DNA from: Acidobacteriota bacterium | Lineage (GTDB): Bacteria; Acidobacteriota; Blastocatellia; Pyrinomonadales; Pyrinomonadaceae | Length of the DNA: 5,741 bases | Reading direction: 5' to 3' | NCBI GenBank assembly: GCA_003222835.1 | Contig: QHXE01001056.1 | Span: 1-5,741 of the forward strand | Shown here: positions 1,985 to 5,741 of the stretch, piece after piece | Layout of the letters: each line of letters opens with the position of its first letter | Position numbering within the stretch: position 1 is the first letter of the stretch | Translations under genes and position numbers: made by a program | The notes under the pieces: model-generated | Told to the model about the DNA's origin: nothing | What the model saw: the letters and a program-made list of their open reading frames with translations, nothing else | The model's database searches: none

Positions 1985-2818
1985 TTACTGCCGCCTCTTA
2001 ATTTCTGCCAACGCCTGCTCGATGGTGCCGTGCGGTTTGTCTTTCAGTTCAGGATATCGAACCAACCATTGATTTAGTGCTTCTTCAGACCTGAAGAAGT
2101 TGATGACCCCTCAACCACCGCCCGCGAAGAAAATCGTTGATGCGGGCTCGGCAGTAATCAATTTTGCTTTATCGAAGACTAGGTGGATGCGTGACGTACC
2201 CTCTGGGGATGAGTCATCAATCGTGAGCTTTTCATTTGCGAGTTTGCCGCTGACCAGCGACAGCGAGTCGAGCGCTCAATTCACGTTGAACTGTCGCCCG
2301 CTGTCCAGGCTTATCTTATGAAAGACGAAGTCCAGTCGCGGCTGCCATTTCATATAGCGCGGTATCACGGCATATCCTGCGCCGCCAGCCTTACTGTCTT
2401 TCTTCAAGATCTCGTACCGCTCAAGCATCGCCAGCCCGCGCTTTACATCAGGTTCTCCTACACCGACTACCGTAGTTAACTCAGATACCGACGGCACAGG
2501 CCTACCGTCACGCTCCGCATTGATGAGCGCGCGTGCGATCAATTTCTCGTCAGGCGTCAGCACGAGCGTGACCCAGCCCCAGCGCCGAATCACTTCGTGC
2601 AGCTCGGGATGAGATTTGATGTAGTTGCCGATACGAAACCGCGTCTCGTCTGACGGCGCGACTTTGATTGCGTTCATCGCGATATCGACACTGGTGACGC
2701 TATAGTCTTCGCCCCAATCCTTCACCAGGTAATCGATAACTTTCTGCTCCTGAGCAGTGAGCTGTGCCTGATCATTTGCAGCGCTCGCGCCGTTCACGAA
2801 CAGCAGTAGCGCAATCAC
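1985..2818 (-). CDS. merB: MerB-like organomercurial lyase with two in-frame UGA (selenocysteine) codons
   Basis: MerB cleaves carbon-mercury bonds by protonolysis using Cys96, Cys159 and Asp99 (family knowledge). Here the frame runs 277 codons from GTG 2818 to TAA 1987-1985, interrupted only by TGA at 2278-2276 (codon 181) and 2113-2111 (codon 236). Codon 181 is followed by ALD, matching the family's C-A-L-D, so it replaces Cys96 and Asp184 matches Asp99. Codon 236 sits five residues before FF, exactly as Cys159 does. The sequence between and after the TGAs is MerB-like, including EPA at 224-226 and a helical tail with Trp251. Residues ~88-140 form the winged-helix part; residues 1-87 are an extra N-terminal segment. 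The start reads like a signal peptide ending in ASA before residue 14; a CTG at 2833 would give a better one. It overlaps the tlpA-like gene by 47 bases. Standard annotation would show only 2276-2818. Alternative: a twice-mutated pseudogene, judged unlikely. Confidence 0.88.
2080..2099 (-). promoter_or_regulatory. SECIS-like hairpin for the second merB-like UGA
   Basis: On the - strand, 11 bases after the UGA at 2113-2111, CUUCUUCA and UGAAGAAG form a perfect 8-bp stem with a GGUC loop that begins 20 bases past the UGA. Bacterial SECIS elements are hairpins just 3' of UGA with a G-starting apical loop at about 16-37 bases; the E. coli fdhF loop contains GGUCU. Confidence 0.8.
2245..2262 (-). 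promoter_or_regulatory. SECIS-like hairpin for the first merB-like UGA
   Basis: On the - strand, 13 bases after the UGA at 2278-2276, UGUCGCU pairs with AGCGGCA (7 bp, one G-U) around a GGUC loop. The loop begins 21 bases past the UGA. The loop sequence and geometry are the same as for the second UGA of the gene although the stems are unrelated in sequence, which argues for selection on structure. Confidence 0.78.
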
Positions 2819-3308
2819 GGTGAGTAGGTTCAGGGCTCGTCTTCAATAGAGTCTCAATGTCTCGCCGAATGTCTGCCGCTTTCGTCTCGGACACGCCGGA
2901 ATATTTCTTGTAGACCTTCCAACCGGGACCAATCACATAAGTGTTGGGAAAGCTGATCACGCCGAAATCAGAAACCGTATCGTCATTGCCGACCAGGACT
3001 GTGTAGCGCATGTTGTACTGCTTAACAAACTTCTGAATGTCGCTTGCCCACCCTGATTGGACCGCGAGCCCTATGACTTTAACGCCGCGCGATGAATATT
3101 CCTTTTCCAGTCTGTTGAATTCGGGGATCTCACTCACGCAGTTCTCACACCACGTAGCCCAAAAATCTAGCACGACGATTTTGTCCTTGAGATCTTCCGA
3201 ACGCAGTGTTCGACCATCGAGCTGCGGTAGGGAAAACTGCGGAACAGAATCCGGCTGTTGAGCCGTTGCGGTTGCGAACAAAATACAGACTAAGATTACT
3301 GCCCTCAT
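2772..3308 (-). CDS. TlpA/ResA-like exported thioredoxin
   Basis: Thioredoxin-fold thiol-disulfide reductase of the TlpA/ResA type, 178 aa. Residues 1-16 are a short signal peptide ending in ATA, so the domain acts outside the cytoplasm. Seen: PQFSLPQLDG (23-32) as in AhpC/TlpA domains, VVLDFWATWCENC with the redox pair Cys54 and Cys57, and the cis-proline Pro121 in SFPNTYVI. This copy keeps ordinary Cys in the active site, unlike the UxxC protein two genes upstream. The ATG at 3308 lies 8 bases after the copZ-like stop, suggesting coupling; no strong ribosome site is visible. The basic C-terminal tail (160-178) overlaps the merB-like gene by 47 bases and is poorly typical of the family; it may be a product of drift. 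Likely role (inference): reducing or demetallating the neighbouring selenoproteins. Confidence 0.93.
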   Translation of the reverse strand: MRAVILVCILFATATAQQPDSVPQFSLPQLDGRTLRSEDLKDKIVVLDFWATWCENCVSEIPEFNRLEKEYSSRGVKVIGLAVQSGWASDIQKFVKQYNMRYTVLVGNDDTVSDFGVISFPNTYVIGPGWKVYKKYSGVSETKAADIRRDIETLLKTSPEPTHRDCATAVRERRERCK

Positions 3309-3316
3309 TTACGTCG

Positions 3317-3782
3317 TCACCGACTCTGCGAAGTTTCTGTCAAGCGGTTCACCGTCTTATTCAGTTCGCCCAGGCAACACATACCTGATGGGTTGCGCGC
3401 CGCGCATGCACATAAGCCCTCTCGAATGAGTCTCGAAACTTTCCGTGGAATGCTGGTTTTACCACTTCCCTCAATTTCATCGCGAATATGCTTCTCGTCG
3501 AAGCCAAAACAGTAGCATACCGGAATGGGATCGTCCGTGACCTTTAGCCCGACGCGCATGCGCAAATCGTCAACACTGAATTGTTGGCTACCTTTATCTT
3601 CGAAATAGACGATTGAACAATCTCGCTCCGAGCAGAAGTTGTAGGCCTTGACCGTCGCACGAACTGCATCGATCAGGGTCGTGCAATTCGTCAGTCCCGT
3701 TCGTCGCTTCGTCAGTCATTGAAGCACTTGATCCGACGCTGTCATCTGTATCGCAGCAGTTCACGACTCTTAGTATCGACAT
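3317..3782 (-). pseudogene. CopZ-like [2Fe-2S] metallochaperone, frame-disrupted
   Basis: Family: proteins like the N-terminal part of Archaeoglobus CopZ, with a zinc ribbon and a BFD-like [2Fe-2S] domain, thought to hand metal ions on in the cytoplasm. The start is ATG 3782, 4 bases after the previous stop. That frame gives NCCDTD, then CSSCDGQG at 3668-3645 (first zinc-ribbon pair), then leaves homology and stops at 3594. A second frame takes over at about 3643 with YNFCSERDCSIVYF (second ribbon pair), RVGLK, VCYCFGF, GLCACAARNPSG and CCLGEL (cluster cysteines), ending at TGA 3319-3317. Normally some 25-30 residues separate CxxC from YxFC; here they are nearly adjacent, so a deletion of about 20 codons plus a one-base shift at ~3644 fits. 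It could be a real lesion or an assembly error. The C-terminal cluster domain is intact. Confidence 0.75.
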
Positions 3783-3786
3783 CCAG

Positions 3787-4359
3787 TTACTTAGTGTTCT
3801 CTCTTAACAATTTCTGGATCGCTTCCCTCGTCCCGTCTATTGCGCGAACAACCGGATCGTGTGAATAGACAGACTGGGGCGGTCCTTTCTCCCAAAGCTT
3901 GCCGGGCGGGTAAACCGCAACGTAATCCCAAACCACCCCGTCTGTTTCCCCGATCGACTTAGAGACCAAGTGCTCCTTATCCCAATACTGTGACGCTCTC
4001 TTATCCGCGATGCGTTTTAGCGTCATCGTGGACGGCGCAGCCAAATCGGTTGGCAATACTGGCTCCCAGATCACGAACACTCGGATTTTTCCCTCGCGTT
4101 GCTCGTCAAGTAGTTTTTGGAATGCAGAGGCCCCCTGCAAACAGACAGTTCAAGTAGGAGACAGCATCACAATTACCCGGACGGAATCGGCAGAGTCATT
4201 GAAGGACTTTTTCAATGAATCAATGTTCGCGTTGTCGAGGCGAACTAACGGTTGTTGCCCAGCTGGGGCCGTGCTACCCAAATACAGGTAGTAAACGACG
4301 AACAAGACAATCGCACCGACCACCGCTACTAATCCATAAATCACGGGCTTACGTCTCAT
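3787..4359 (-). CDS. Membrane-anchored thioredoxin-like protein with in-frame UGA (selenocysteine, UxxC)
   Basis: The 190-codon frame runs from ATG 4359 (or GTG 4365, overlapping the merT stop) to TAA 3789-3787, with one TGA at 4152-4150. Seen: basic MRRK start, a transmembrane helix at ~7-28, then a thioredoxin-like domain placed outside by the positive-inside rule. The strand VIVMLSPT is followed by UGA-T-V-C, so the codon sits at the first Cys of a CxxC motif (Sec70, Cys73). Homology continues through it: LQGASAFQKLL, then WEPVLPTD, LKRIADKRASQYWD and a Trx-like final helix. I recall similar proteins beside mer genes, but cannot check. A GAGGTGA ribosome site overlaps the start region. Proposed role (inference): reductant or metal acceptor for the Sec-containing lyase. 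Standard annotation would split it into a 71-codon piece and a piece at 3787-4140. Alternative: nonsense mutation. Confidence 0.85.
4123..4139 (-). promoter_or_regulatory. SECIS-like hairpin for the thioredoxin-like UGA
   Basis: Ten bases after the UGA at 4152-4150 on the - strand, UGCAGGG pairs with CUCUGCA (7 bp, one G-U) around a GGC loop starting 18 bases past the UGA. The opened form has a 7-base loop beginning GG. Position and loop fit bacterial SECIS rules, though the loop is not the GGUC seen twice in the merB-like gene. Confidence 0.6.
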
Positions 4360-4361
4360 CT

Positions 4362-4689
4362 TCACCTCGCCAGAACATTCGCAACCAAATTCGCTATGAC
4401 TTGCGGGAACAGGAAAAACGTGAGCACGGTAACGACCGAGAGCGACAACACGATCGTGCTAAAGAGACTCGGTTTACAATGGCATTGTTTCATTCGCCAT
4501 CTCTGATAAAAAGCAAAAGCGATCGAGAGAAGAGACGCCGCCAGGAGGAACGGTCGAGCCTTTGCAAAGAACGCTGAACTTCCGGCGGCGCCGGCGGCAA
4601 AGATGAATGGAAACATCGGCAAGCAACAGGTGGAAGCCAACAATTCGACCTGATCCCGGTGCTTTCGCACTAGTTGTTTCCGCACCCAT
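4362..4689 (-). CDS. merT: MerT-like mercuric ion transporter, N-terminus apparently frameshifted
   Basis: Inner-membrane mercuric transporter of the MerT type, which moves Hg(II) inwards through paired cysteines. Read from GTG 4685 (107 aa): helix 1 contains ASTCCLPMFPF with the Cys20-Cys21 pair, helix 2 covers ~46-60 (PFLLAASLLSIAFAF), the loop carries Cys68 and Cys70 in KQCHCKP, and helix 3 covers ~75-103. This matches the MerT plan of a Cys-Cys pair in helix 1 and a second pair in the cytoplasmic loop. The likely original start is ATG 4689, overlapping the merR stop as TGATG, which gives MGAETTSAKAPGSGRIVG; but that frame must shift by one base near 4640-4647 to join the helix-1 frame. 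Either an indel is present and the gene is damaged, or translation starts at GTG with a short basic N-terminus. The stop overlaps the next gene's GTG. Confidence 0.78.
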
Positions 4690-5135
4690 CAACTTATTTT
4701 CTTGCGGCTCTTTCCTTGAGGAGGTTTACTCTTCCCGCCGGCCACGACCGGACAACATGCCGAGTCGCCATGCGTTTCGAGTTCACGCTCACATGCCGAG
4801 AGATGCCGTGCGAGCGTGCGACGGAAATCTTTCATAGCGGTCATCTTGTCGTCTAACTCACCTATTCTTTTACCCAACAGATCACGAACACTCCGGCACT
4901 CTCCAGCACCGCCCGTAGCCAGAAGTCCTTTAATTTCATCCAACGTCAGACCTAGCTCTTGCGCCTGCTTAATGAATTGGACGCGTTCTACAGACTCCGG
5001 CCCAAAGAGCCGAAAGCCACCCGTAGTACGCCCGGCGCGAGGCAAGAGCTTCAACCGCTCGTAATAGCGAACGGCGTCGATACTCACTCCTGCGCGAGTT
5101 GCCAATTCACCAATGCGAAACTCTGTTTGCTCCAC
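4689..5135 (-). CDS. merR: MerR-family metal-responsive regulator, probably mercury type
   Basis: Dimeric activator/repressor that untwists promoters with overlong spacers when metal binds. 148 aa. Seen: the N-terminal winged helix FRIGELATRAGVSIDAVRYY, the wing with TGGFRLF, the QELGLTLDEIKGLL segment, a long dimerisation helix (~82-114), and metal-ligand candidates Cys80, Cys115 and Cys127/Cys128 in ACCPVV. The 35-residue gap between the first two equals that of Hg-sensing MerR (Cys82 and Cys117), and the CPVV end resembles CPII of MerR, so mercury is the best guess; a Zn/Cd/Pb sensor is not excluded. The C-terminal tail is basic and Ser-rich. GTG start at 5135, preceded by a GAGGAAGGGG ribosome site. 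It is the first gene of the operon it should control, unlike the divergent arrangement in Tn501. Confidence 0.93.
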   Translation of the reverse strand: MEQTEFRIGELATRAGVSIDAVRYYERLKLLPRAGRTTGGFRLFGPESVERVQFIKQAQELGLTLDEIKGLLATGGAGECRSVRDLLGKRIGELDDKMTAMKDFRRTLARHLSACERELETHGDSACCPVVAGGKSKPPQGKSRKKIS

Positions 5136-5159: not shown

Positions 5160-5191
5160 AGTATAGACCCTTGAGTTAGCTCCAGAGTCAA
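5160..5191 (-). promoter_or_regulatory. MerR-type promoter/operator of the operon
   Basis: On the - strand, TTGACT (5191-5186) and TATACT (5165-5160) are separated by 20 bp, longer than the normal 17 and typical of MerR-controlled promoters. The spacer carries a dyad, GACTCTGGAG (5189-5180) and CTCAAGGGTC (5175-5166), 8 of 10 bases symmetric, much like known ZntR/MerR operators. Transcription would start near 5153, giving a short leader before merR and autoregulation of the whole operon. Confidence 0.88.
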
Positions 5192-5469
5192 GTCTCTTTC
5201 TTTAGGTATTACTGATTGGATAAGGAGACAAGGACAAATACTCTCCTACTCAGTGATCGTGGTTGCGCGGTTAACGCGCACCGGCGTTGCCACGCACAAC
5301 ACTCGATATCGCGAGATGATTTCCTGCTCAATATCTCATTTAAACTTAAGCCCGGAAAGCAAAGACTGTCAGTTCTAGAGGCTGACAGTTACTTAGAGAG
5401 ATAGTTCGCGGGACGTCTTTGAAGTTTCTAAAACTTTTGAAGCTTGAGTCTGACAACTATTGAGTAAAT
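5192..5469. other. Non-coding region upstream of the operon with hairpins
   Basis: I see no credible gene here. Visible structures are an inverted repeat TGCGCG and CGCGCA (5264-5280, 5-base loop), an 8-bp inverted repeat ACTGTCAG and CTGACAGT (5365-5389, 9-base loop), and the palindrome CGATATCG near 5310. The right arm of the second belongs to the 11-mer CTGACAGTTAC (5382-5392), which recurs at 5727-5737 at the end of the right repeat copy. These look like recombination or protein-binding sites, without proof. Confidence 0.5.
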
Positions 5470-5513
5470 TGGAGCGGGCGACGGGAATCGAAGCCGTATT
5501 ACCAACTTGGGAA
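5470..5513 (-). other. 3' fragment of tRNA-Gly(CCC), likely integration site
   Basis: On the - strand, 44 bases match the 3' half of a tRNA-Gly: anticodon loop TTCCCAA (anticodon CCC, bases 5511-5509), GTTGG as the 3' strand of the anticodon stem, a short variable region, the T-arm with TTCGATT loop, acceptor strand TCGCCCGC and the CCA end (5472-5470). The 5' half is absent; the bases before the anticodon loop cannot pair with GTTGG. One T-stem pair is broken (CGGC opposite CCCG). So it is not a working tRNA. A block from anticodon loop to CCA is the classic att identity left by tyrosine integrases that insert into tRNA genes. Confidence 0.75.
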
Positions 5514-5576
5514 TCAAAATTTCCTCTCCTTTATTTTCACTACTTACAAAATCGCTCGGAAAAAAAGTACGTGCAT

Positions 5577-5741
5577 GCACTGCCTGATTTGCGTATCGCT
5601 GGGGGGATGTTTGGGGGACGGTTGCTCGCATAAATTTTCGATCACTTCGGACTCGTTTTCGGTGATCGCGAAAGTGCATCTACTGCTCCCGAAACCGCCC
5701 GTGGCGCAACTGTAAAATCTCAGAGACTGACAGTTACCGAT
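5577..5741 (+). repeat. Right copy of the ~165-bp direct repeat
   Basis: This copy matches 1758-1922 at a constant offset of 3819 bp and runs to the window edge, so its true end is unseen. It carries the same tandem pair in diverged form (about 5601-5611 and 5612-5622, GGGGGATGTT and TGGGGGACGGT), plus a 7-bp hairpin CGATCAC and GTGATCG (5639-5668) that the left copy lacks. It lies ~65 bases from the tRNA-Gly fragment, the spacing expected between an att core and arm-type sites. Confidence 0.8.

Follow-up and report, generated by a model that had tools for sequence, protein, structure and literature searches.

Contig QHXE01001056.1 of the Acidobacteriota assembly GCA_003222835.1 (Pyrinomonadaceae), a stretch of 5,741 nt hereafter called the window, carries a merB-like gene with two in-frame UGA codons at the positions of the catalytic cysteines Cys96 and Cys159 of MerB. 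On comparative sequence evidence, both UGAs are almost certainly read as selenocysteine (Sec). The encoded protein is quite likely an organometal lyase on the same kind of evidence, and the best single reading, which is probable on balance, is an exported, mercury-directed double-Sec lyase with the MerB fold. A preliminary description of this DNA had proposed a double-Sec MerB-like lyase; that proposal gains support from the UGAs at both catalytic positions, from hairpins resembling selenocysteine insertion sequence (SECIS) elements, and from Sec machinery in related genomes, with lyase activity as its predicted component. All coordinates refer to the whole window, and merB and every listed gene of its cluster lie on the minus strand.

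A gene with a predicted MerB fold and two conserved UGA codons

The merB frame (2818-1985) interrupts its 277 codons only with UGA 181 and UGA 236 and closes with a normal stop. Its strand and coordinates agree with the preliminary description, as do the ALD directly after the first UGA and the FF beginning five residues past the second. General reassignment of UGA is ruled out: several window frames end in UGA, and a 484-codon aldehyde dehydrogenase frame contains none.

Pfam MerB (PF03243) matches residues 167-259 of the protein at 35.9 bits (cut-off 27), and its relative at locus L004 reaches 47.8 bits; no NCBIfam release 20 model scores over its cut-off for the window protein. The predicted structure has the fold of the MerB catalytic domain. 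U181 and U236 align with the two cysteines of MerB2, and D184, three residues past U181, occupies the Asp99 position, which is Asp in all six loci compared. Two chalcogen positions plus this Asp form the set required for C-Hg cleavage in MerB, according to the available portions of two papers (PMC8261052, PMC4525700). MerB-like sequence had been claimed before, between and after the UGAs. Similarity to MerB2 does run from about residue 86 onward, but the N-terminal part is instead a signal-peptide-like hydrophobic segment followed, in the model, by extra helices. Export outside the cytoplasm is likely, as predicted from this signal-peptide-like start.

Both UGAs are conserved. A scan of GTDB species genomes recovers four loci (L001-L004), titled Acidobacteria, Pyrinomonadaceae and Blastocatellia. 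Six of 162 genomes of the class contain a match, which is full length in five: the genomes of L001-L004 and G148, whose merB (locus L009, wider stretch L028) is 57% identical to that of the window. The sixth genome, G138, has a 23-residue match only. The full-length set thus comprises six loci (the window, L001-L004 and L009), with relatives 56-81% identical to the window, and UGA stands at both columns in all six. As a refuting outcome, the preliminary description had named homologs in which the two columns hold unrelated residues or chance stops; none occurs, the alternative residue being the Cys of MerB2. Over the 15 pairs of the six loci, differences at codon positions 1, 2 and 3 number 182, 133 and 382 between the UGAs and 98, 69 and 292 after the second. 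Because these differences concentrate at position 3, selection on the reading frame continues beyond both UGAs.

Database annotation breaks the gene at the first UGA. A search of 5.8 billion proteins returns 632 homologs at E<=1e-3; among the 120 listed, 118 end at the Asn preceding UGA 181 and two end earlier. Queries confined to the sequence downstream of UGA 181, taken once from the window protein and once from the most divergent family member, yield 54 candidates, none of which matches at E<=1e-3. In this database and at this sensitivity, no predicted protein joins both halves, and the same searches find no Cys version of the close window family. Among viral contigs, 41 stretches match in the scan but none is a relative, and the plasmid scan returns one distant Rhodococcus MerB only. 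This plasmid gene (L075:3620-4621, pRZP1) encodes an alkylmercury lyase of the Cys type, extended at its N-terminus by a long segment that looks thioredoxin-like by eye, and adjoins a MerR gene. Separately, genome G002 holds a second, fragmented double-UGA merB copy in differing frames (L029 / G002:C184:11031-11416).

Further predicted Sec-MerB types, SECIS-type hairpins and Sec machinery

The phylum also contains other predicted Sec-MerB genes. Across 396 Acidobacteriota genomes, PF03243 matches in 29 and exceeds its cut-off in 27. The 33 places over cut-off include 15 with one in-frame UGA, six with two and 12 with none, two of the latter being UGA-free pieces from G186. Fourteen of the 15 single-UGA genes were read, and every one combines a Cys at the Cys96 position with a UGA at that of Cys159; these predicted single-Sec genes form type iii (L033-L042, L044, L045, L048, L052). 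Five of the six double-UGA places belong to a second double-Sec clade, type ii (L054, L055, L056, L057, L069:5898-6164), with the motif UAED...YU..FFWSEEH, and the remaining one, from G004, belongs to the window family, type i. In a tree built from 36 proteins, type i and type ii each form one clade (100/100), the tree does not settle whether they are sisters, and sense-codon members are interspersed among type iii. A hydrophobic signal-like start is lacking in the two proteins checked, one of type ii and one of type iii, and no mer neighbours are seen by eye in eight loci (three bearing type ii plus L069, and four of type iii).

Hairpins of one kind recur at the Sec sites. Under a fixed rule (GGUC tetraloop, stem of at least 6 bp, loop start at +18 to +21), the window family has such a hairpin at UGA 181 in 6/6 loci and at UGA 236 in 5/6 (11/12 sites), the exception being L009, where a 7-bp stem at UGA 236 carries a 6-nt loop. 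The GGUC loop begins 20 nt past UGA 181 in this family and, in five of the six loci, 19 nt past UGA 236. Type ii has the GGUC hairpin at its first Sec in 0/5 genes and at its second in 5/5, and type iii in 12/14, for 28/36 over all Sec sites. The rule finds nothing at 36 homologous sense codons (11 at the Cys159 position and 25 at Cys96, including Ser, Trp and one plasmid-borne gene) or at 2517 further in-frame codons from ten genes. At the Cys159 position, a single sense codon among the 11 is followed by a hairpin with a G-first tetraloop, not GGUC. These counts exclude the UGAs of the neighbouring thioredoxin-like and HMA genes; each of the three thioredoxin UGA sites has a stem of 7-8 bp whose G-rich loop lies at +16/17, and no hairpin after the HMA-type UGA of L028 is convincing. 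The GGUC loop resembles that of the Escherichia coli fdhF SECIS element. At both UGAs, the window-family hairpins agree with the apical loop range of 16-37 nt downstream of UGA given for bacterial SECIS elements in the accessible text of PMC10778597.

Covariation supports the stem in types ii and iii (19 sites, 18 distinct), where four of seven pairs change on both sides and none of 500 shuffles reaches the score. Within the window family covariation is weak (2/7 and 1/8 pairs; 21 and 34 of 500 shuffles attain the score). A covariance model built from the 19 type ii/iii sites was run over 75,906 bases (window-family loci and L096). Its six matches at E<=1 are the six UGA-236 sites, a test that is not fully independent given that the proteins are homologous at these sites; the same model does not find the UGA-181 sites. 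An Rfam scan at E<=5 gives one sub-threshold hit only.

Sec machinery was searched in the genomes of five relatives (G001-G004 and G148) and in 14 control genomes. tRNA-Sec exceeds its cut-off of 47 in 5/5 relatives (best scores 63.8-69.7). SelA does so in 4/5 (the fifth relative has a partial match) and in 1/14 controls; SelB does so in three of the four relatives' genomes searched and in 2/14 controls.

Gene neighbourhood

The cluster runs from a promoter through MerR, MerT-like, Sec-thioredoxin, CopZ and TlpA genes to merB (Table 1).

Table 1. Features of the merB cluster in the 5,741-nt window
Feature	Position	Strand	Basis
MerB-like gene with two Sec codons (predicted)	1985..2818	(-)	277 codons from fallback GTG; Pfam MerB PF03243; predicted MerB fold
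UGA codon 181, MerB Cys96 position	2276..2278	(-)	UGA in 6/6 full-length loci; aligned to MerB2 cysteine
UGA codon 236, MerB Cys159 position	2111..2113	(-)	UGA in 6/6 full-length loci; aligned to MerB2 cysteine
SECIS-type hairpin for UGA 181	2245..2262	(-)	7-bp stem; GGUC loop begins 20 nt past UGA
SECIS-type hairpin for UGA 236	2080..2099	(-)	8-bp stem; GGUC loop begins 19 nt past UGA
TlpA/ResA-like thiol-disulfide protein, WCENC, directly upstream of merB	2772..3308	(-)	Profile matches; adjoins merB in 6/6 loci
CopZ-like Fe-S/zinc metallochaperone gene, frameshifted	3317..3782	(-)	Pfam zf_CopZ; NCBIfam CopZ_Nterm_CC 99.6 bits (cut-off 100)
Membrane-anchored thioredoxin-fold selenoprotein (predicted), SPTUTVC	3787..4365	(-)	In-frame UGA; predicted fold
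UGA (predicted Sec) of thioredoxin-like gene	4150..4152	(-)	UGA in 18/20 loci
MerT-like inner-membrane protein, Cys-Cys in first helix	4362..4685	(-)	NCBIfam MerTP E 2.2e-7, Pfam MerT; both below cut-off
MerR-family regulator	4689..5135	(-)	MerR family over Pfam cut-offs; Hg-MerR TIGR02051 98.9 bits (cut-off 150.85)
MerR-type promoter TTGACT-20 bp-TATACT	5160..5191	(-)	Same layout in 4 loci compared

The promoter layout upstream of merR is common to the window, L001, L002 and L028. A MerR gene lies upstream in 5/6 loci, frameshifted in L001 and of a different kind in L004, with none on the short L003 contig. In alignments to 4ua1 and 5crl, cysteines of the window MerR line up with the three metal-ligand regions of Tn501 MerR. 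CopZ occurs in 4/6 loci and is broken in the window; Sec-thioredoxin occurs in 3/6 and is split by a frameshift in L002. L028 has instead an HMA(GMTUDGC)-TlpA fusion with an in-frame UGA (10415-11212, minus strand) and a MerT-HMA fusion beside its double-Sec MerB. The MerT-like counterpart in L028 passes the Pfam MerT cut-off. A Sec codon in the window CopZ gene was considered and rejected: the UGA is out of frame, L001, L002 and L028 have Cys motifs, and L096 has the same out-of-frame stretch beside a CopZ part that is in frame.

The thioredoxin-like protein is modelled as one N-terminal helix followed by a thioredoxin fold. Its UGA (4150-4152) is a third credible Sec codon in the window, one that the preliminary account of merB leaves unmentioned. 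Its gene is found at 44 places in 34 of the 162 class genomes. In the 20 loci read (L076-L095), the active-site column is UGA in 18 and Cys in two, and the motif is mostly SPTUxxC; no NCBIfam model exceeds its cut-off for the proteins of the window, L096 and L076. The thioredoxin of genome G139 is 97% identical to that of the window; this genome has no MerB match, and its two contigs end in or just after copZ.

Imperfect direct repeats at 1740-1922 and 5559-5741 bracket the cluster, with segments of 47, 34 and 37 nt at 81, 85 and 76% identity and a constant spacing of 3819-3820. A stretch at about 5465-5520 resembles a partial tRNA 3' end by eye, and ARAGORN calls no tRNA. The cluster may be, or may once have been, a mobile insert.

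Proposed function, rival readings and known systems

Mercury has a higher affinity for selenium than for sulfur and is an inhibitor of selenoenzymes. If the window protein is a double-Sec lyase, selenium at both gripping positions turns this affinity into catalysis, and Hg(II) release from a selenolate site becomes a directly testable question. In the proposed mechanism, MerR would sense Hg(II) or a similar soft metal and switch on the cluster. The selenolates U181 and U236, with D184, would grip R-Hg(+); a proton would pass via D184 to the carbon, R-H would depart, and Hg(II) would remain on the diselenolate site. An oxidising compartment would favour a diselenide between U181 and U236, and Hg-Se bonds are hard to break; the membrane-anchored Sec-thioredoxin and the TlpA-like protein would therefore keep U181/U236 reduced and help unload Hg(II), which could go to MerT/CopZ or to an outside chelator. 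The substrate is likely an organomercurial or related organometal.

The full picture would be a MerA-independent, extracytoplasmic detoxification of organomercury, in which a dedicated selenothioredoxin anchored in the membrane, together with TlpA, recharges and unloads a diselenolate MerB. This MerB would be one of three or more types in Acidobacteriota that use selenium, hidden from a large mer survey, likely by UGA truncation. This combination is put forward tentatively, as slightly short of an even chance. The 2021 survey lists MerA in seven Acidobacteria genomes and MerB in none, as far as its Table 1 goes (PMC8261052), likely because truncation at UGA hid MerB. Since 27/396 genomes exceed the Pfam cut-off here, and 21/33 places have an in-frame UGA, the methylmercury-degrading potential of soil Acidobacteriota would be undercounted if these genes encode lyases.

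Several observations weigh against an exported double-Sec lyase. Whole-chain TM-scores are low (0.33-0.36 by query length), the canonical MerB models NF009710 and NF033555 score 13.8 of 193 and 13.7 of 200 bits, far below cut-off, and the Cys117 position is Ser (MerB2 alignment, by eye). The window contains no MerA, and none of the five relatives' genomes, four of them titled as metagenome-assembled, exceeds the TIGR02053 cut-off of 454.45 bits, the best score being 383.1. Over the sequence covered, tblastn detects MerT, CopZ or Sec-thioredoxin neither in L003 nor in L004. The tRNA-Sec model also passes its cut-off in 5/14 control genomes. When synonymous codons are resampled, a GGUC hairpin as large as the one observed has P 0.006-0.054 per site (11 sites having GGUC), and the best stem irrespective of its loop is unremarkable (P 0.04-0.28); because of these values no single hairpin is decisive, and it is the contrast with the sense-codon sites that carries weight. 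The window copZ (3317-3782) is frameshifted and lacks a stretch found in L096, and the merB start region (window 2790-2860) is disturbed relative to L004; either assembly error or decay might explain both. Because of this upstream disturbance, the GTG at 2818, from which the preliminary description began the gene, serves only as a fallback start. Its 277-codon frame stands, but in relatives the usual start is an ATG (MKTKPW-type) that lies about 10 residues upstream of it.

These irregularities bear on the reading in which the UGAs are ordinary stops, the product being a truncated protein of 180-190 residues, a decaying gene or a sequencing error. The indels in copZ and at the merB start, the database homologs that end at the first UGA (among the 120 listed) and the second G002 copy broken into pieces could all be cited for it. 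It is nevertheless rejected as very improbable, given both UGAs in 6/6 full-length loci, coding constraint beyond both, the SECIS-type hairpins, Sec machinery in relatives and Cys at both columns in MerB2. Another reading is a MerB-fold diselenolate trap or chaperone that would capture a soft metal such as Hg(II) or Cu(I) outside the cytoplasm and pass it to MerT or CopZ with no carbon-metal cleavage. This is unlikely, since the Asp99 position is Asp in 6/6 loci and both chalcogen positions are kept, which is the C-Hg cleavage set in the available parts of PMC8261052 and PMC4525700.

A lyase might also act on another organometal or organometalloid (tin, lead, arsenic or tellurium) rather than on mercury. 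The regulator falls below every NCBIfam MerR-type cut-off (Hg-MerR 98.9, Zn 89.4 and Cd/Pb 78.0 bits), and the promoter half-sites, which resemble those of ZntR/PbrR operators, count toward the same idea. Against it, Hg-MerR is the best model, the cysteines fall at the three Tn501 MerR ligand regions, and a MerT-like gene adjoins; the proposal is accordingly doubtful.

Sec-containing MerB as such is not new, because the accessible text of two papers names such selenoproteins: 'Organic mercuric lyase MerB2' (PMC7435645) and an alkylmercury lyase MerB-like protein (PMC9312934). Full-text literature searches, with subscription papers outside their scope, returned no title or abstract on a double-Sec MerB, and the term 'MerB' is absent from the deep-Sep paper (PMC12013277).

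The preliminary description had left a choice between the SaoL cassette and a separate mer-type system, and the evidence favours the latter. SaoL (NF040728), a MerB-like organometallic lyase selenoprotein, likewise combines MerB-like sequence with predicted Sec, but has one Sec in a CU motif in the available sections of PMC13188914; the window protein has two Sec and no CU motif. Membership was rejected at 12.9 bits for the window protein, 17.0 for L002 and 12.1 for L009 (cut-off 140), and a scan of seven window proteins matched no Sao model apart from this sub-cut-off SaoL. The same 2026 review lists, in those sections, a putative MerT-type transporter, a putative mercuric reductase-type metal-binding protein and CopZ forms (PMC13188914). 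These are soft-metal proteins with Sec in place of Cys, as here, but not MerB-fold lyases. Within Acidobacteriota, type ii shares Sec at both positions, type iii has it at the Cys159 position, and GGUC hairpins at the second position are common to all three types.

A further close comparison is with MerB (PDB 3F0O/3F2F) and MerB2 (PDB 5C17). Unlike their systems, the window has no MerA near merB, and its protein misses the NCBIfam MerB cut-offs. The protein itself departs from both enzymes in its predicted Sec at both catalytic positions, Ser at the Cys117 position, signal-like start and extra N-terminal helices. It resembles them in the predicted fold of the catalytic domain, in the two chalcogens plus Asp, and in its MerR and MerT-like neighbours.
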